Assembly: GCF_028583425.1 (NCBI RefSeq)
Contig: NC_072792.1
Coordinates: 157,920,676-157,984,675, forward strand
Direction: 5' to 3'
Length of the DNA: 64,000 bases
DNA from: Eublepharis macularius
Taxonomy: Eukaryota; Chordata; Lepidosauria; Squamata; Eublepharidae
A program made the translations under genes and the position numbers. Shown in pieces: positions 48,473-62,668 of this stretch (position 1 is the stretch's first letter; each line of letters opens with the position of its first letter). The notes under the pieces are model-generated. The model saw nothing but the letters and a program-made list of their open reading frames with translations. It was not told the DNA's origin and did not search any database.

Positions 48473-49711
48473 AGATATATACAATATGGCATGACATCTG
48501 GTTTAGCAGGAAGTGGGAAGGAGGGGGGGGTCATGTCAAAATTAGTATCCCTGCCTCTGATCCATGTTCTGCATCACAAGAGCTCAACCAAGCACTAGAG
48601 CAAGGCTTTTTACAATGTGATTTGACTATTATTCTGTGCCGCCTTCACACAAAAATATCAGATGGGACATGTTTATATTCTATTAGAATAATAATTTACT
48701 CAGACTTCTTTCTGTTGCAGCTAACTCCAGACAATGAACAGATCCTTGCAGAAATCGTCAGGAGATTGAATCCAAAGCAGTTCTCTCAAGTTTTGCAGGG
48801 AAGGTGTTTTTTTTTCTTATTTCACTGAAGTTATGGTAATTCAGTCCCAGTTCAAAGTCAAGTGCCAAAGTGAACTCTGAAGCCTGCCCCTAGCGGGAAC
48901 TATACTTTTAAAAATACATTTAGACTATTAGTTCTGTAGTATCTCAAATTTTATACTTCATATTGTGATAACTTTTCTTAGAACTGGCAGTGTAAGTTGC
49001 CTCATCCTGATTCAGGTGATTGCTCCATATACCCCAAAAGTGCCAATTCCCACAGACAGTGGCTGTCCAAGAAACACTTCTCAGCCTTCCTGCCTGAGAC
49101 CTTGAACTGGAACTAGCCGTATGGTACCACTGAATTATGGCCCCTTCTCCCTAATTCATTTAATTAGGGAGAATAAGGCCAATACTGACAACTATGAAGC
49201 ATTTCAGCTTTACTTTCTCTGACCAAAAAGTCATCCTCTTTCTATAAGCAAAATTCTGGCAGACTAATCAAAACTGCCTTCTGGTGCACTAATTGAAAAC
49301 AAAAACTAGAAGGGAGGTATTGCTGTAGGGATATGCTTCCTTCTCCATTTGTGACATCTCATTAATTCAGGAACTGAGGAGGATGGCCCCTCAAAACAGA
49401 AACTTCATTTCATTTTTACTTTCACTGGTTAGGTGCAAGTCACCCCTGTTAGTAATAAAACAAGGATTATCTAAACCAACGGATGGTATTTGGCCTATCC
49501 ACCATGTTACTTCTTTTAAACATGCTGAGTTTTAAAATAGAGAGATGATAGAAGTACAGAAAGGAAAACAAGGGGCCTCTACAAGCTGAAAGGGGTTTTG
49601 TTAACTTACAGGAGAAGCAAATGCATAATTTATGACTCTCCAAAGGCTTGCCGAGTTGGATCTGACTCTTGTGCATTTTTCTGCCGTAGCCAAAGGGCTG
49701 CTCCAGTAAGC

Positions 49712-49740
49712 ATTGTGTGTGTGTGTGTGTGTGTGTGTGA
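49712..49740 (+). repeat. (GT)n microsatellite
   Basis: About 14 GT dinucleotides between IL17D and IFT88. Confidence 0.95.
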
Positions 49741-49832
49741 AGGGGCTTCCCATGCAAAGCCTGACATAATTCAGCTAATCGCAAAAAGAGCAGCATTAGC
49801 ACCCATTGCCCTATTCTGCCATTGCCAAAAAT

Positions 49833-50952
49833 GTGTCCCACCATTTCAAAAGAAAATCAGCCTGTGTTTTATAGATTACAGCAAAGCTTTTGATTGTGTG
49901 GATCATGAAAAGCTTTGGATAGTGTTAAAAGAAATGGGGGTGCCACAACATCTGATAGTTTTGATGCACAACCTGTACTCTGGACAAGAAGCTACTGTTA
50001 GGACAGAATATGGAGAAAATGGTTTCCAATTGGCAAAGGTGTCAGACAAGGATGCAAATTATCTCCCTTCCTGTTCAACCTCTATGCAGAGCATATCATA
50101 AGGAAAGCTGGATTAGATCTAGAAGAAGCTGGAGTAAAAATTGGTGGAACGAAAATTAACAATTTGAGATATGCAGATGACACAACGTTATTGGCAGAAA
50201 ATAGTGAAGACTTGAAACAACTACTGATGAATGTTAAAGAACAAAGCACCAAAGCAGGATTACAGCTGAGTATCAGGAAGACAAAAGTAATGGCTACTGT
50301 GAAGTTACACAATTTTAAAGTTGACAATGAGGAAACTGAAATTGTCCTAGATTTTCTATTCCTTGGCTCAATCATCAACCAAAAGGGAGGCTGCAACGAG
50401 GAAATCAGAAGGAGATTGAGACTTGGAAGAGCAGCTGTGAGGGAGCTAGATAAGATCCTTAAAGATAAAGATGTCTCTCTGGGAACCAAGATCAAGATAA
50501 TCCAAACTATGGTATTCCCCATTGCCATGTATGGATGTGAAAGTTGGACGGTAAAGAAAGCTGACAGGAAAAAAATTGATTCATTTGAAATGTGGTGCTG
50601 GAGGAGAGTTCTGTGGATACTGTGGACAGCCAACAAAGACAAATAAGAGGTTACTAGATTATATCAAGTCTGAATTCTCCCTAGAAGCTAAAATGACAAA
50701 ACTGAGGCTATCGTACTTTGGTCACATTATGAGAAGACAAAATTCTCTGGAAAAGTAAATAATGCTATGGATAGTAGAAGGCTGTAGGCAAAGAGGAAGA
50801 CCTAAAACGAGATGGCTTGACAATAAAAGATGCCACTTCCTCCAGTTTGCAAGATCTGAGCAAGTCTTTTAATGATAGGACATTTTGGAGGTCTTTCATT
50901 CATAGGATCATCATAGGTTGGAGGCAACTTGACAGCACATAACACACACACA
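49833..50952 (+). mobile_element. BovB (RTE) LINE, 5'-truncated
   Basis: Encodes the C-terminal half of RTE-clade reverse transcriptase. FQKKISLCFIDYSKAFDCVD contains motif A. After a frameshift near 50040 the frame continues with LRYADDTTLLAE (YADD, motif C), then VFPIAMYGCESWTVKKADRK and FEMWCWRRVLW. After another break near 50640 come LRLSYFGHIMRRQNSLEK and the GRPKTRWLD tail. It ends AACTTGACAGCACATAACAC. BovB LINEs are abundant in squamates. Non-functional, with several frame breaks. Confidence 0.92.
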
Positions 50953-54025: not shown

Positions 54026-54147
54026 TCATTCTGGAAGCAAATCATCTCCTAATTCTTCATCAGCGAATTCATCTTCATCCACTTTTTTCTTGAGGGCAGT
54101 TTTTGGTCTCTCGGTTTGGGGTCCAAGTGGGTCTACGTAGGAGGCAT
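54026..54147 (-). CDS. IFT88: IFT88 last exon
   Basis: Encodes (D)ASYVDPLGPQTERPKTALK through FADEELGDDLLPE and TGA (54028-54026). The minus-strand acceptor is TAAAACCATAG. Confidence 0.94.
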
Positions 54148-57100
54148 CTATGGTTTTATGAAAGAAGACAGAAAGGTTAGTTTCTTCCAAACAATAGCAG
54201 CTACTCTTATAACTTGGAACAGCTGTCAGAAATTAAAATAAAGATTTATACTCAACAGCAGACATATTCTGTATCAAACTTTTAAATTCCATGCCAAATT
54301 GCAGAAGTCTTTCCCCTAATACTCTTTTGTATCAGTTACGGGATCCCAACTTATCCTGCATATTGGCTCTATTATCCTGCATAAAGGCCTTAGAGACTCT
54401 ATTGTTGACAAAGAGAAGACTTCTCCTTCCCATTATTTATACAGATCCCATCTTTATAATAAATACAACAGAACAAAAGATATTCTATATGCCATTGCTG
54501 GCATTTTCCATGTATGTGGAGTTGGCATATGCAGCTGACAATTTACAGGATTATAAAAAATGTCCTGGTTCATAAAACTACTTTTAAAAAACAGTGAAAT
54601 CTGTACATAGAGAGTCCTTGGAAGTATATATAACTTTAGTTCAGACATAATACAAAAACATGGTTTAACTCTGGTTAGTTTCTGAAACCAGAACGCAACT
54701 TGCAAATGATCACCCATATCCTGGTTTGCCTTGAAGAATGCTGGTTTCATCACTTTCATTCTGTAGCCAGGGAACAAATGAAGGCAGCAATGACAAACAA
54801 GCCAGGATGTCTGCATTTGCACATGCTGCAAAACCATATATAAGATTACCTGTGGTTAATAAACTAACTTCAAACCAAGGCTTTACAACCCAGTTTGATG
54901 GAAGAATTCATCATAGTTAGTGGAGTGGCCTGTGTTCAGGCAATCACAAAAACCATTGCTAGGTTTAATTAAGCTGTGGTTTTGCATCATGTCTGAACTG
55001 AGCCTTATAACCCCTTTTCAAGTTCTTGTTTCACCATTCCAGCCTTAACTGTGTCAACAAAATCAAAATACTGGATAAAAGAAATGTAGTTGAAAAGTAT
55101 AGTATTGCTAGATCATTTCCCCAGATGTCTGATTCTCTACTATGAACCTTCATAAGTATAGTAGTCTTTTATCCTTCCTTCACAATTTAAACAACACAAA
55201 TTATCTGAAACATGTATTTTCTTATTCTTTCCATCTATATGAAAACAAAGTATCGAGACAGTAATATATCACTTACCGATTTCTTTATTAATGCTGCTTT
55301 CATAAGGCTCATTTGTACCTGGCAAGGATTTTAATTTTGCACTCAGCCGTTCTCCTTTAATAGTAATGCTACCAGGATCTGGAGAGGGAGAGAAACTGAT
55401 CCATAAAACATTGGACAATGCACATTATATTCTTTTCCAGCATTTTACTAGGCATTTATATTTTGCTTTTAGAAGGCTGAGAACATTTTCACCTACAGTA
55501 TCATTGTAAACCTTGCAGTCACTCTCTGAGGCAGGTCAGTATTATTATCCAAAAGAATCAGGGAGGAGGTACAAGACACCACTGGAAGAAGAAAGAAATG
55601 GGACACTCTCTCCATCTATAATGCAATTGTCTTATTATGCTGATTTCAAGTCTAGGTAAGAAGAAAACTGCTTATCTAGATGCAAAACCTGAGCAGTTTG
55701 TTGTACATTTTGATCTCAACCTCCCTATTCTATCCCCTGGCTCTTATTTTCACACATCTCATTTTGGAATAATTTCAGTGGTTGGGGTTTCTATACCTCC
55801 TTTGAATTAATTTAGGACTGGGTGAAGCTCTTCTCCTCTGATACTAACTAATCCTCTTATTTGGACTCTTTTACCTTCAAAGTAATCTGACTTCTGAAAA
55901 GTTTACAGCATCCTGGACTAACAGCGTGGAGAGAATCAGGGCTGTGACTCCCATTTCCTAGTTCCCCCTCTTCATGATACCAAGGGCTCAAGCAGGTCTA
56001 GTTCTCTTCCCCACTGGACTGTTGTGTTTTAACAAGTGTTTCATGGGCCTCATATTGCACAGCTTCTAGTAAACTATGGGATTGCTTTTTTAAAATCGCA
56101 AACTATTATTTGCCTGCACAGTGGGGAGTGGTGGTGGGGGGATGTAGCAGCAGCTTAAGTAATACAAAAGCGAACAGAATTTAGGAAGCACTTCCTGCCA
56201 TACATTAATCTTTATATTCTACAGTAATCTGATGTTTACCATTCTTTTGTTTAGTGAGCTCTGCTGTTGTGGCATAGAGCAAAGCTTTTTCAGTGGTGGC
56301 ACCCACCTTGTAGGACTAGCTTCCTAAAGATGTTCTCCTCTTCTCTTGTTCTATGCCACTGCCAGGTGAATACTGTTTTTTAAAATTTTGAATAGTATTC
56401 TAAGACATTTAATTTAGTATTAACTCTAATCTTAATTTCCTTGATGCTTTTGTATTGGTTTTTACTGTTGCTGTCACTTGTGGTTTTCATGCCTTTTTAA
56501 TGATTTTATTCTGTTTAATGGATAGTGACTATTTAAAATATGAATGAGTGGGATCCCCCATGACTTCCTTCAATAGCATCCAAGCTGCCCTTTGTTTGCC
56601 CCAATCCCTAACAGATGTAGAGAGCTAGTTTGGTGTAGTGGTTAAGAGCAGCAAGACTCTAATCTGGAGAACCAGGTTTGATTCCCCTCTCCTCCTCCTG
56701 CTAGGCATTTGGTAAAAGAGACTTTCGAACGCTTGGTTTCACTCAAGCGGAACTAAGGTACTTGTTTTCCAATCTGTCACACCTCTATCTACATCTGATT
56801 TCAGATTATTGCTCTTACAAAATGTTTTCCCAACCTATAGCTAGTATTAGATCCAAAAAAGTATGCTTTCCAAGACTGATTGTTGGAACAGAGAGAGAGG
56901 GAGGGAGGGAGGGAGGAAGGAAGGGAGGGAGGATTCTAATATCATTTAAAATGAAGATAATTTAATATCTATAAAGCATATCTATTACACTATATTTATT
57001 ATTCTGTATCTCTCTTAACAGTCAGAAATTACACTGACCTGTTGCAACTTCTGAGACCAAATTATGCTTGTTTTCAGGAGAGGGAGTAGCTAGAGAATGG

Positions 57101-57488
57101 AGAGTAAGAATGAAAGGAGATAAAAAAGGAAATCTAAAGCTGTGCACAAATGCAAGATGAAAGGAAAAAACACAGCATCATAAACAGAACAGAAAAAGGT
57201 TAAGAATGGGAATTCTGTGAATGTATAATTTTTAGAGACAGTTTAGTGTAGCGGTTAAGAGTGGCAAGACTCTAATCTGGAGAACTGGGTTTGATTCCCC
57301 ACTCCTCCACTTGAAGCCAGCTGGGTGACCTTGGGTCAGTCACAGCTTCTAGGAGCTCTCTCAGCCCCACCCACCTCACAGGGTGATTGTCATGAGGATA
57401 ATGACAACACACTTTGTAAACTGCTCTGAGTGGGCATTAAGTTGTCCTGAAGGCTGATATATCAATTGAATTTTGCTGCTGCCATCGC

Positions 57489-57545
<57 letters not shown>

Positions 57546-60500
57546 AATTATGCGAAACACAATCAAAAATAAGCAGAGGTCACATGTTATTATTGATTGG
57601 CCTTGCTAAGCTGATACAAGTTTCCACCGGAGACCTAAGTATCAACCAGATATCGGCGTAATATGTACACTGTTCCAAGTAGTGCCGTCTTTTGCAGTTC
57701 TGTAGGTGTTATGTCAGAAAGCTGCAGTTTTTCCATGTTGTTTCCCAGAGCCCTGATGACAACGGGGACTACTGTTGCATTCTTCTTCCATAGTTGGGTG
57801 GTTTCTATTGCCAGATCTCTATATTTAATCATTTTTTCTTGTTCTTTTTCTTCGACTCTGGCATCCCCAGGAATTGCAATGTCGATTATCCAGACTTTTC
57901 GATTTTCCACGACTGTTATGTCTGGTGTATTATGTTCAAGGTGCCGATCAGTTTGAATTCTGAAATCCCACAAGATCTTGACTTTTTCTAGCACCTTTTC
58001 CACTTGACGTTCCCATGAATTCTTTGATACTGGCAAGTTATACTTTTTACACAATGACCAATGAATCAGCTTTGCAACCCCATCATGTCTAGCTTTGTAG
58101 TCCATCTGTGCAATTTTGCTGCATTCAGAGATAAGGTGGGACACAGTTTCAGCTTTTTCCTGGCAAAGTCGACATTTGGGATTTTCACTGATTTTCTGAA
58201 TTTTGGCTTTCATAACATTCGTTTGCAATGCTTGTTCTTGTGCTGCAAAGATCAGACCTTCAGTTTCTTTCTTGATTGTACCCATCTTCAACCATGCCCA
58301 AGTTAGGCTGTTGTCACTTTTTCCTTCAATATTTTTTAGATGTTGCTCATGTAAGGGTTTGTTCTTCCAGCCATTTAATCTATTCTCAAGCTGTTTCTTC
58401 TTGTATTCAGCCTTTGTTTTGGTTGTTTTTAATATGTTCTCTGTTTTCAAAGCCTGAAGTAATTTTTCTGTACTTCTACTGATATAATCATTCAGGCCTC
58501 CCTTTTCTTCTTCCACTACCTGATGTACTTGTAACAGTCCTCTTCCACCACTTTTTCATGGTAAATATAGCCTGTCAACATCACTTTTTGGGTGTAAAGA
58601 GTGATGCATGTCCATTAGTTTTCATATTTTTTGATCCCATCATCATCATCATCATCAATCATCATCATCATCAAAGAGCTAGAGACAAGAGCCTGTCAAG
58701 GACTCCCGCTTCCTTCTCTGCCCATCTGATCTTCTCTGGCAGGCAGAAGAAAGGAAGGCAGGTAAGTAGATATCTCTTCCTGCTAGGCATTTGGTAATTG
58801 AGGCATTCCAACTCCTGTTTTCACTCATGTGGAACTATGGTACTTGTTTTCCAATTTATCACACCTCTATCTACATCTGATATCACTGTTCTTACAAAAT
58901 ATTTTTCAAACCTATAGCTAGTACTAGATCCGAAAAAACATGCTTTCCAAGACTGATTGTTGAAACAGAGAGAGAGGAAGGGAGGGAGGATTCTAAAATC
59001 ATTTAAAATGAAGATAATTTAATATCTGTAAAGCATATCTATTACACTATATTTATTATTATGTATCTCTCTTAACAGTCAGAGAAATTACACTGACCTG
59101 TTGCAACTTCTGAGACCAAACTATGCTTGTTTTCAGGAGAGGGAGTAGCTAGAGAATGGAGAGTAAGAATGAAAGAAAGAAGATAAAAAAGGAAATCTAG
59201 AGCAGTACACAAATGCAAGATGAAAGGAAAACACAGCATCATAAACAGAACAGAAAAAGGTTAAGAATGGGAAATTTGTGAAAGTATAATTTTTAGAGCC
59301 AGTTTAGTGTAGTGGTTAAGAGTGGAAAGACTCTAATCTGGAGAACTGGGTTTGATTCCCCACTCCTCCACTTGAAGCCAGCTGGGTGACCTTGGGCTAG
59401 TCACAGTTCTCTGGAGCTCTCTCAGCCCCACCCACCTCACAGGGTGTTTTGTTTTGGGGATAATAATGACATACTTTGTAAACCGCTCTGAGTGGCCATT
59501 AAGTTGTCCTGAAGGGTGTTATATAAATCGAATGATATTAGTTGGCAAATAATGCACTATCTGAAACCAGCATCATATTTATGATTTGGAAAATAATGTA
59601 TTTTCCCACATGTGAAGTGGTCGCTAGTAATATGGCAAACCAGTTTTACTTGCATGGTAAAAATTAGGTCCACATAATCTCAAGATGTGAATCAATCAAT
59701 GGTCCCTGCTGTTTTGGCACAGAAGGTGAGGCAGGCTTCCAGCACCAGATCAAAGTATCTCACGGCACCAGCAACTGGAAGTCTTAATCTGCCTTTGCAT
59801 ACCAGACACAATTGGATTTACAGCACTGAACTAAACTGGCATCAGGTATCCATCCTTCAAGGAATACACAGAGAAACTGACCTTCAAAAAGGCAGCATAA
59901 CATGGTTGATATTCTATTCTTTTTTCACCAAACTGAAATGCTGTGCTGTCAATGTATCTGATGGTTTAAGTATAGCTGCCAAGGATGTGGCTTCTGGAGC
60001 TTCATGTAGCCCAATTAGGAAAGGAAAGCCAAACAGAGGAAAGGAGGAAACAGTGGACAGCTCCAAGAGCAAGCCATGGAAGAGAAAGTCCTGCAACAAG
60101 TTCAGAAACCTCCAAAGGGTTGGCCTCCCCTGTTACACGGTTTTTAATTCTCCCCCTTTTGCACCAGACTTGGAGCAGAGACAGAACATTACATGCCTTG
60201 GAAACTCTTAATAGATTACTTTGGGTTGGATCCAGACTAAAATTTCCATCAGTGGAACGAAACTCTGCCCCTCCCCGCTGCAGCCCACAGAGCTCCATGA
60301 AATGCTCCTCCTGTAACACAGGGACCCTGAGGAATGACACAAGGTAGACTGCAGTGGAAAGTGCAAGTTGAGTTTGGATCCAACTTTTTGTCTTGTTTAC
60401 CTAACTGTAATTTGTAACACTTGTGATTATGTTCCATCTTGAGGAAGCAGGGGGAGGCTCCAGCGCAGGATGAGCAACCATAGAAAAGATACTGTTATAT

Positions 60501-62668
60501 CCTATACGATTTAGGGGGCAGCCTTATACAGTAAAGTCAGCCTAGCACTGTCTACAAGGATTAGCCCAAAAGCCTTACGCAAATATTTTGGCCTGGACAA
60601 AATGACAGCTGGCACTGAAACAGCCATACTCATGGTTCTTCCAACACTTCTCAGCTTACATTTATCATTACATGAGGATGTTCTTTTTAGAAAGTCATAC
60701 GATTTATTGGCACATGCTGTGTTGGTTTAACAAGAGTGACCTGTTCTAGAACAGGCCTGAACCATGTGGCCCAAAAGCCAATCTCAGCCAATGAAACGTA
60801 TGGTGGCCCAATAGGAGGTTAAACCTCCTATTTTGATTGCCTGTCCACAACTGCAAAAATAATTAGAGGGGCATATATGTGAAGCACCTGGCAGACACAA
60901 CCAGTAGGCTGAGTTTGGGTAGGTTAAGTTATGCAGGCCTGCTGTGCCACATCACAGGTGGACAGAACACAGTATTTTAGATGCAACAAATTCCAAAGTG
61001 ATATTCTAAATGTTCTAAACATGTCCAACATCATAATTATCCCACAGACCATAACAGATGCACCTTATTTCAGGATTTATAGCTCCCAAAATTTCAAAGC
61101 ATTGTTCTGAAATGTTCTAAAAGCAATACTTTCTGTACAGCTACAGCTATAATAGGTTCCAGAGGAGCAGCTACATTAGTTTGCTGCAGCAAAAATATAA
61201 AGGGGGGGGATCTTGTGGCACCTTTAAAGACTAACGGATTTATAACAGAACTAGTAAGAAAGCCTGTTGTGTGAAAAAATACAGCAGGCTCTAGAAAGTG
61301 GAGGGCGGTCAGGCAGGCATTGCCTCCTGTTCCACACCTGATCCTGTCTGGGTGATGGTGGGGGGGTGGGCACTGCCAACTCCTCTGCTCCTGATCCCAG
61401 TCTGGTGAGGGGTGGGGGTGGGTATTGCCGCATGCTCTGTGCCTGATTCTGGCCTGGGCTTTCCACTGCAGTGCACGCTCTGGAGGAACAGGCTGCCTTG
61501 TCTGGGCTTCCCTCCATGGCAGCGCCCTCTGGAGGCACACGAGGGTAGGAAGTGAGTTGTCAGGAACACGGTTAGCCTTTTATATAGTAAGATGCTGAAC
61601 CCAAAATTCTCATGAGAGTTGATCCTGTCTACATAGACCCCAAGATTTTTTTTTCATGTGGTTTCCGTTAGGAATATGGTGGGTTGGCATAAAACAGCAG
61701 CATCTTAGTTTGTGGTTAATATTTCTAAAGAATTCTGTTACCTTATACTTTAAATATCTGTTTGATATAGGCATTTACTGTATGATGAAACAGTACCTTT
61801 TATTACAACAACAAGTAACACAGCTAAATGTAGCTATGCAATAAAGGACAAAAATAAAACAGTCCAGCTCCCAGGCTTACTACCCACAAGCACATTCTGT
61901 TAAGAAGAAGAGGGCCGGGAAGCATGCTGAGCCTGACAACATCTTTCTTAGGCCTGGCCAGGCTGACATCATTACTGTCTCCATTTTAAATGAAGAATTC
62001 TCTGCTTCAGAAGTCAGCAAACTGAGCTTGTCTTCCTTCTTATATCTGTTTGCTGCCCACTAGCAAAAATGCATCTCCCCTCTTTCCATCTGTTATCTAG
62101 TCGCTCTTAATCAACTGAAGTGTTTTTTCTAATTCCTGATCTGAATGTCCTGGAGAGATGAAAATTAGGTATTCTTCTCCAAACCATTAATTTAAATTAA
62201 TGCTGTAAGGGATCTTACAACATTAGCTTGTCATTGCTCCTGGCTGTTTCTTAGATATCTAACATTCTGATTGCTTTACATCCTTAGGGTAGCAAGATTC
62301 AAGCCCTGGAGCACTTTGAAGAAGATTTCCAGGATGTAAGCTTTCGAGAGTCTGGTAATCTTGTTGGTGTTTCAAGGTACTAAAGGGGTTCTTGGGATTC
62401 AGCATATCAGCCACTGTTTTTAATAGGAGACCCCAAAGTGCCTCCCACAGTCTTTTCTGTTATCCACATGGCTCCATCCCACAGGTTGTTCCTGCTTATA
62501 GATTAAGTAATTTGCAAACCGAGGCCATGGATAGGACAGAGGTGGCTGCATGGGCTTCTATTTGGTTTCAGAAACCTTGAATGTGTCAACATTTCACCAG
62601 TACTTACCACCACCAGCGCTTCCTTCTCTGCGAGCACGGGCACTACCATCTCGGCCAGACTTGACACG
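54026..62668 (-). CDS. IFT88: Intraflagellar transport protein 88, C-terminal part
   Basis: IFT88 is a TPR-repeat subunit of the IFT-B core, needed to build cilia. Only the C-terminal tail after the TPR domain is in the window. Exons in transcript order are 62668-62608, 59148-59098, 57089-57039, 55378-55277 and 54147-54026, all with phase-1-type joins that keep the frame. They encode RVKSGRDGSARARREGSAGG, then a 17-residue unit ending LVSEVAT that is present twice, then DPGSITIKGERLSAKLKSLP, then DASYVDPLGPQTERPKTALK and an acidic end DEDEFADEELGDDLLPE before TGA. The tail is basic/Ser-rich, then acidic, with no membrane or TPR segment. The upstream exons lie right of the window. Identity rests on the conserved SEVATDPG...GERLSA...EIDASYVDPLGP tail. 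Confidence 0.93.
55277..55378 (-). CDS. IFT88: IFT88 penultimate exon
   Basis: Encodes (D)PGSITIKGERLSAKLKSLP through NEPYESSINKEI plus one base. The minus-strand acceptor is CTCCCTCTCCAG and the donor GTAAGT. Confidence 0.93.
56618..56696 (+). mobile_element. tRNA-derived SINE (type 2), head only
   Basis: GAGAGCTAGTTTGGTGTAGT, GGTTAAGAGCAGCAAGACTC, TAATCTGGAGAACCAGGTTT and GATTCCCCTCTCCTCC stop abruptly at the left edge of the IFT88 duplicated block. Its body is absent. Confidence 0.8.
56697..57470. repeat. Segmental duplication, copy 1 (contains IFT88 exon)
   Basis: CCTGCTAGGCATTTGGTA begins the shared block. It includes a GGGA-type purine run (about 56890-56932), the 51-bp exon and a type-2 SINE, and stays alignable with 58779-59532 throughout. 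Confidence 0.92.
57039..57089 (-). CDS. IFT88: IFT88 51-bp exon, copy nearer the 3' end
   Basis: The minus-strand acceptor TTCTCTAG and donor GTCAGT bracket 51 bp encoding (A)TPSPENKHNLVSEVAT plus one base. Its ends are symmetric in phase with its duplicate at 59098-59148, so either or both copies can be included without breaking the frame. Confidence 0.88.
57233..57475 (+). mobile_element. tRNA-derived SINE (type 2) in duplication copy 1
   Basis: AGACAGTTTAGTGTAGCGGT, GGTTTGATTCCCCACTCCTC, CTTGAAGCCAGCTGGGTGAC, 'cccacccacctcacagggtga', GGGCATTAAGTTGTCCTGAA and ATATATCAATTGAA. It is followed by the (ATC)n tract. Confidence 0.88.
57487..57543 (+). repeat. (ATC)n microsatellite, left part
   Basis: About 18 ATC units follow the SINE. 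A second, shorter (ATC)n tract is at 58637-58671 on the other side of the LINE. Confidence 0.95.
57544..58636 (-). mobile_element. R4/Dong-type LINE, 3' half
   Basis: An uninterrupted minus-strand frame of 293 codons (58516-57635) matches the C-terminal region of LINEs with a restriction-like endonuclease. It starts NKPLHEQHLKNIEGK, passes a zinc motif CRLCQEKAETVSHLISEC (C-x2-C-x7-H-x4-C), then NTPDITVVENRKVWIIDIAI (the PD...D nuclease core), and ends LQKTALLGTVYILRRYL. The reverse-transcriptase part is absent (5' truncation). (ATC)n borders both sides. The lack of stops over 293 codons suggests a fairly young insertion. The clade name is from the pattern of zinc motif plus nuclease. Confidence 0.8.
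58637..58671 (+). repeat. (ATC)n microsatellite, right part
   Basis: About ten ATC units with one irregularity (ATCAATCATC), directly 5' of the R4-like LINE as the LINE is oriented. Confidence 0.9.
58779..59532. repeat. Segmental duplication, copy 2 (contains IFT88 exon)
   Basis: Starts CCTGCTAGGCATTTGGTA and matches copy 1 through the purine run (shorter here), the 51-bp exon and the type-2 SINE. Scattered substitutions and small indels show the event is not recent. Confidence 0.92.
59098..59148 (-). CDS. IFT88: IFT88 51-bp exon, duplicate copy
   Basis: Identical length, acceptor (TTCTCTAG) and donor (GTCAGT) to the copy at 57039. It encodes (A)TPSPENKHSLVSEVAT, differing by N to S. It lies in a duplicated block of about 760 bp. 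Confidence 0.8.
59295..59540 (+). mobile_element. tRNA-derived SINE (type 2) in duplication copy 2
   Basis: GAGCCAGTTTAGTGTAGTGG, GGTTTGATTCCCCACTCCTC, 'tgaccttgggctagtcacag', CACCTCACAGGGTGTTTTG and GCCATTAAGTTGTCCTGAAG. Same insertion as 57233-57475, copied with the block. Confidence 0.88.
60225..60386. mobile_element. Short inverted-repeat DNA element (GGGTTGGATCC family)
   Basis: Starts GGGTTGGATCCAGACTAAAA and ends TTTGGATCCAACT, as at 8118-8302. It lies in the IFT88 intron. Confidence 0.6.
60750..60860. repeat. hAT-like remnant
   Basis: AACAGGCCTGAACCATGTGGCCC followed by GCCCAATAGGAGGTTAAACC resembles one terminus of a reptile hAT element. No second end or duplication was found. Confidence 0.3.
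61165..61250. mobile_element. Hairpin retroposon relative, left part
   Basis: GGAGCAGCTACATTAGTTTG, CTGCAGCAAAAATATAAAGG, then 'gatcttgtggcacctttaaagactaacgga' follow the left end and arm of the hairpin retroposon family in reverse orientation to copy 1. Confidence 0.55.
62608..62668 (-). CDS. IFT88: IFT88 exon upstream of the duplicated exon
   Basis: Encodes RVKSGRDGSARARREGSAGG plus one base. The minus-strand acceptor is TTCACCTAG and the donor GTAAGT. It joins either 51-bp exon with the codon G|CT (Ala). Confidence 0.9.

Follow-up and report, generated by a model that had tools for sequence, protein, structure and literature searches.

Does the IFT88 gene of the gecko Eublepharis macularius carry two copies of a small optional exon, and would both copies be used? 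The question was raised by a stretch of 64,000 nucleotides (assembly GCF_028583425.1, contig NC_072792.1, positions 157,920,676 to 157,984,675 of the forward strand; referred to here as the window), in which an original prediction had recognised two similar blocks, each with a 51-base-pair (bp) exon. IFT88 is a TPR subunit of IFT-B (PDB 8bd7 chain A), and loss of IFT88 removes cilia in a lizard cell line, according to PMC11607698. The block proved to be duplicated within an intron of IFT88. The best overall explanation, with about an even chance of being correct, is a single duplication followed by use of the two exon-like copies as independent optional cassettes, which would lengthen the protein's tail by 0, 17, or 34 residues.

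The duplicated block and its host gene

The host gene of the block is IFT88. Four TPR exons, when joined, gave 97 amino acids that matched IFT88 in PDB 8bd7 chain A (E = 1e-21), and a human IFT88 query of 825 amino acids aligned over its full length and with its exons in order to the window plus 100 kb upstream. The TPR match to IFT88 together with the conserved C-terminus identifies the gene as the orthologue. The coding span runs on the minus strand from 104559 (numbering continued past the window) to 54029, a 50.5-kb gene, and without the 51-bp unit the coding sequence comprises 25 exons and 820 amino acids, complete and open. While the gecko TPR exons match the solved protein, the tail does not: searches of solved chains with the vertebrate-type IFT88 tail, with the unit in or out, gave no match (E up to 0.1 or 1).

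Local alignment of the two copies of the block (copies A and B, Table 1) showed substitutions at 56 of 752 ungapped sites (7.4%) and 8 indels, with ends that differ by at most 6 bases from those originally given (56697-57470 and 58779-59532). The duplicated segment is approximately 770 bp long and was copied once, inside the 7.2-kb intron between IFT88 coding exons 23 and 24. When the genome (2,236,738,225 bases, or 2.24 Gb, in 72 contigs) was searched with 56697-57230, there were 17 matches: two of full length, which were copies A and B, and 15 of 35 to 61 bases, which covered a GAGG simple repeat only. The spacer at 58675-58790 had a single match in the genome, and the window holds no N. The two segments are adjacent and homologous, each with an exon-like unit and its splice signals, as in a tandem exon duplication.

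Because the copies have diverged by 7.4%, are separated by a retroelement fragment and by a spacer with a single match, and lie in sequence without N, a haplotype or assembly duplicate is not plausible. The basis is a single assembly, but haplotypes left unmerged, or a misjoin, are extremely improbable given substitutions and indels well beyond allelic levels and flanks that differ between the copies. The concern about an assembly artefact that accompanied the original prediction is largely removed by this divergence.

Table 1. Features of the duplicated block and of the adjoining part of IFT88 (positions in the window)
Feature	Position	Strand	Basis
Coding exon 23 of IFT88 (25 in the conserved set), RVKSGRDGSARARREGSAGG, donor in phase 1	62608..62668	-	coding-set reconstruction, human alignment
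Copy A, upstream block copy, transcribed first	58774..59533	-	alignment; full-length genome match
Short interspersed element (SINE) in copy A, strand opposite to IFT88	59295..59533	+	genome search, SINE comparison
Copy A of the cassette-like exon, ATPSPENKHSLVSEVAT (KHS), 51 bp in phase 1-1	59098..59148	-	splice signals, open frame, alignment
Non-long-terminal-repeat (non-LTR) retroelement 3' fragment between copies, (CAT)n on both sides	57489..58674	-	frame 58555-57638; genome matches
Copy B, downstream block copy	56692..57471	-	alignment; full-length genome match
SINE in copy B, position and orientation as in copy A	57234..57471	+	genome search, SINE comparison
Low-divergence tract, read as gene-conversion tract	56863..57385	-	18/500 sites differ
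Copy B of the cassette-like exon, ATPSPENKHNLVSEVAT (KHN), 51 bp in phase 1-1	57039..57089	-	splice signals, open frame, alignment
SINE head, truncated at 3' side, abutting copy B edge; rearrangement breakpoint	56621..56696	+	alignment, SINE comparison
Coding exon 24 of IFT88 (conserved set), acceptor in phase 1	55277..55378	-	coding-set reconstruction, human alignment
Last IFT88 coding exon (DASYVDPLGPQ...GDDLLPE, then stop)	54029..54147	-	reading frame, coding-set reconstruction, human alignment

The 51-bp unit as a candidate exon

The exon-like copies differ by one base, which gives AGT (Ser) in copy A and AAT (Asn) in copy B, and they share the same acceptor (TTCTCTAG) and donor (GTCAGT). 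All four possible products (skipping, A alone, B alone, and A plus B) are open through to the IFT88 stop; in other words, the frame is preserved with either copy in or out. According to a crude splice score, the donor of the unit outscores 18 of the 24 donors of IFT88 and its acceptor 16 of the 24 acceptors. Units of this kind were rare by chance. At cut-offs equal to the scores of the unit itself, the sense strand of the gene (50.5 kb) held three open phase-1 units, symmetric and 30-200 bp long (copies A and B, which count as one event for this purpose, and 98766-98680), and the opposite strand held none, while 20 first-order Markov simulations of the same length yielded one altogether. A scan of 164 kb recovered the same three phase-1 units on the sense strand and none on the other. 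Upstream of the window, the sense strand of IFT88 has two other unannotated exon-like units that passed the same cut-offs, at 98766-98680 (87 bp) and from 65551 (84 bp).

The gene, the strand, the exon ends, the phase, and the in-frame effect of 17 residues had all been predicted correctly. The original prediction as a whole was partly supported. The status of the unit as an exon is itself predicted from splice signals and open frame, and the unit lies outside the conserved coding set. The 25-exon set is complete without either copy, and human IFT88 is not known to have a counterpart of the unit. The Anolis sagrei IFT88 model, as given in PMC11607698, also has 25 coding exons. Given these three observations the unit would be at most an optional cassette, and it is moderately likely that it is an optional exon that is not part of the conserved coding set.

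The unit would be inserted into a linker rich in Gly, Ser, and Arg that joins the TPR region to the conserved acidic C-terminus. Since the splice signals are alike in both copies and the frame is kept, each copy would be recognised independently, giving mRNAs with none, one, or two copies, and the linker from the TPR part to the acidic C-terminus would be longer by 0, 17, or 34 residues. The conserved gene structure suggests that both copies are probably skipped in the main transcript, and inclusion would then probably be a minor isoform.

The foremost alternative, possible although somewhat doubtful, is that neither copy is used, in which case a piece of intron with a chance resemblance to an exon was copied along with the sequence around it, and both copies are silent. 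It would fit the position of the unit outside the conserved 25-exon set, the lack of a known counterpart in the human protein, the equal number of coding exons in the Anolis model, which does not include the unit, and the finding that the exon is no better conserved than the rest of its tract. Several further points weigh against optional use. The splice score was built on approximate consensus frequencies, with cut-offs fixed at the values of the 51-bp unit itself, and the same crude score had been used to pick the ends of the conserved exons with which the unit was ranked; the exon 17/18 joint scores poorly (-4.2 for its donor and -5.5 for its acceptor), and its position may be off by a few bases. 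The frame of 17 codons is short, and it is open in phase 0 as well. A search of the genome for IFT88 retrocopies with an 837-amino-acid query placed 23 of 23 matches inside the gene itself (31 candidates scored) and so gave no retrocopy that could record past splicing; with a 71-amino-acid tail query, four of the five matches were in the gene and one was unrelated (E = 4.8). What speaks against silent copies is that the splice signals are better than those of most real IFT88 exons, that the phase is correct, and that such units rarely arise by chance. No publication on the 51-bp exon was found among the titles and abstract starts listed for IFT88 isoforms, alternative splicing, splice variants, and IFT88 in geckos.

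A different use of the same two copies, as mutually exclusive exons that give a choice between Asn and Ser in the tail, had also been proposed and is very unlikely. The copies are homologous, lie next to each other, and agree in length and phase, as expected for such exons, and two weak intronic pairings have the geometry of competing pairings. Positions 61978-61993 in the upstream intron can pair, at 15 of 16 bases, with a site found at the equivalent position below copy A and below copy B, and positions 58463-58483 in the retroelement can pair in the same way with a site above each of the two (76% match). These pairings are short and AT-rich, and they are among 27 inverted pairs at the setting used. 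The simpler mechanisms of mutual exclusion surveyed in section 7 of PMC5740500 are steric interference, mixed splice-site types, and a frame break on double inclusion. None of these is visible here: the exon-like copies are 2,008 bases apart, far from the fewer than 50 bases between donor and next branch point that steric interference involves; both have the same GT-AG signals rather than a mixture of U2 and U12 sites; and 51 bp is divisible by three, with the A plus B product open, which means that neither double inclusion nor skipping has a frame cost. The conserved gene evidently tolerates the absence of the unit. Section 7 of PMC5740500 also describes a tendency of cassette exons to fall in loops or disordered stretches and of mutually exclusive ones to fall in folded domains, which favours the cassette reading for a unit in a linker.

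Divergence, repeats and history of the block

The original prediction had taken the almost unchanged exon as a hint that both copies are under constraint. Divergence along the block is uneven, with 18 of 500 sites changed (3.6%) in the tract at 56863-57385 and 38 of 252 (15.1%) in the rest of the block, and only 1 of 500 permutations was as extreme. The exon and its splice signals together (1 of 77 sites) did not differ significantly from the remaining tract (17 of 423; P = 0.18; exon alone, P = 0.39), and the SINE portion of the tract, which has no coding role, was also low, with 6 of 151 sites changed. The hint of constraint is not supported, as it holds only if the low-divergence tract, SINE included, is ignored. 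Selection that retains the two copies because they form a repeated module in the tail of IFT88 is accordingly an unlikely explanation. One change in 51 bp with zero at silent sites would suit it, as would the comparison with the whole rest of the block (77-site core, P = 0.011; exon alone, P = 0.083), but the sole difference alters an amino acid, and there are too few silent sites to give a test of coding constraint any power.

The step in divergence points instead to probable partial gene conversion between the copies, which would be enough to explain the tract without selection. In the history that we favour, an intron segment of about 770 bp that carried a SINE and the 51-bp unit was duplicated once within the intron, as observed. 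The non-LTR retroelement fragment that now sits between the copies would have inserted after the duplication, and part of the block would later have been homogenised, with the 51-bp unit serving as an optional cassette. The overall Kimura two-parameter distance between the copies is 0.079, which corresponds to approximately 18-66 million years if yearly rates between 2.2e-9 and 0.6e-9 are assumed. The Texas banded gecko pedigree rates given in PMC9995274 (3.17e-9, or 1.96e-8 modelled) lead by simple arithmetic to about 12 or about 2 million years. This dating was rejected, as the spread of rates and the suspected conversion leave just an age older than allelic variation.

A genome search with 57232-57470 identified a high-copy SINE (best 40 of 2321 candidates scored). 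Because it is found at the same place in both copies, the SINE predates the block duplication. Comparison of 235 SINE sites with 26 other copies gave 3 shared derived sites, 14 that were specific to A, 7 specific to B, and 3 at which both differed; the 26 SINEs were the best matches to copy B, and the imbalance between A and B is therefore biased. It is weakly suggested that the SINE inserted not long before the duplication.

The retroelement fragment had at least 42 genome matches (best 40 of 1737 candidates scored), and its other long copies were 89-93% identical. All Pfam matches of its reading frame were below threshold (zf-RVT, 25.1 versus 27.5 bits), and it may be R4/Dong-like. CAT/ATG microsatellite borders it on both sides, as would result from insertion into that repeat, a pattern that may reflect the target choice of the family. 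The SINE head that abuts copy B has lost its 3' side, a loss that is unusual for retroposition. A tandem duplication within a SINE would be expected to leave its joint here, but it should also leave a third unit farther on, and none was found in the genome searches. A tandem repeat with a 52-bp unit in 2.1 copies occupies 61337-61447 of the same intron. Beyond the 3' end of IFT88, two reading frames on the minus strand (45805-45461 and 34519-34178), the strand of IFT88, look like the two coding exons of IL17D, named by eye from sequence and gene order, and a reverse-transcriptase-like stretch on the plus strand at 49541-50098 (FIDYSKAFDCVDHEKLW) appears by eye to be a second retroelement relic.

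Comparison with known duplicated and alternative exons

The IFT88 pair is an ordinary type of event, a tandem exon duplication, with expression that is predicted. It resembles the tandem exon duplications surveyed in PMC9013439 and PMC9741552 in that a single intron holds two adjoining homologous exon-like units that match in length and phase. It differs from them in being young, near-identical, outside the conserved coding set, and known here from genomic sequence. The introduction of PMC9741552 puts the share of human tandem exon duplications with bony-fish orthologues above 90%. Homology, equal length, and adjacency are also shared with mutually exclusive exons (629 human clusters in PMC5740500), but unlike those the pair has no visible exclusion mechanism, both double inclusion and skipping are in frame, and the unit lies in a linker that is probably disordered rather than in a known folded domain. 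With cassette exons of linker and disordered regions the unit has in common that it is short, frame-neutral, and dispensable for the conserved protein; it differs in being present twice in tandem.

An extended form of the cassette explanation, which is unlikely, would see in the unit a recently doubled, TPSP-bearing module of 17 residues in the gecko lineage, spliced at 0, 1, or 2 doses into the linker of IFT88, a ciliary transport protein that is strongly conserved in other respects, and thereby making the tail tunable by dose, for example in testis or photoreceptors. If the copies are used at all, they would represent a young tandem exon duplication before divergence, in which it can be asked whether independent cassette use comes before mutual exclusion. 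If they are unused, the locus would indicate that near-identical exon-like copies may stem from gene conversion and not from constraint.

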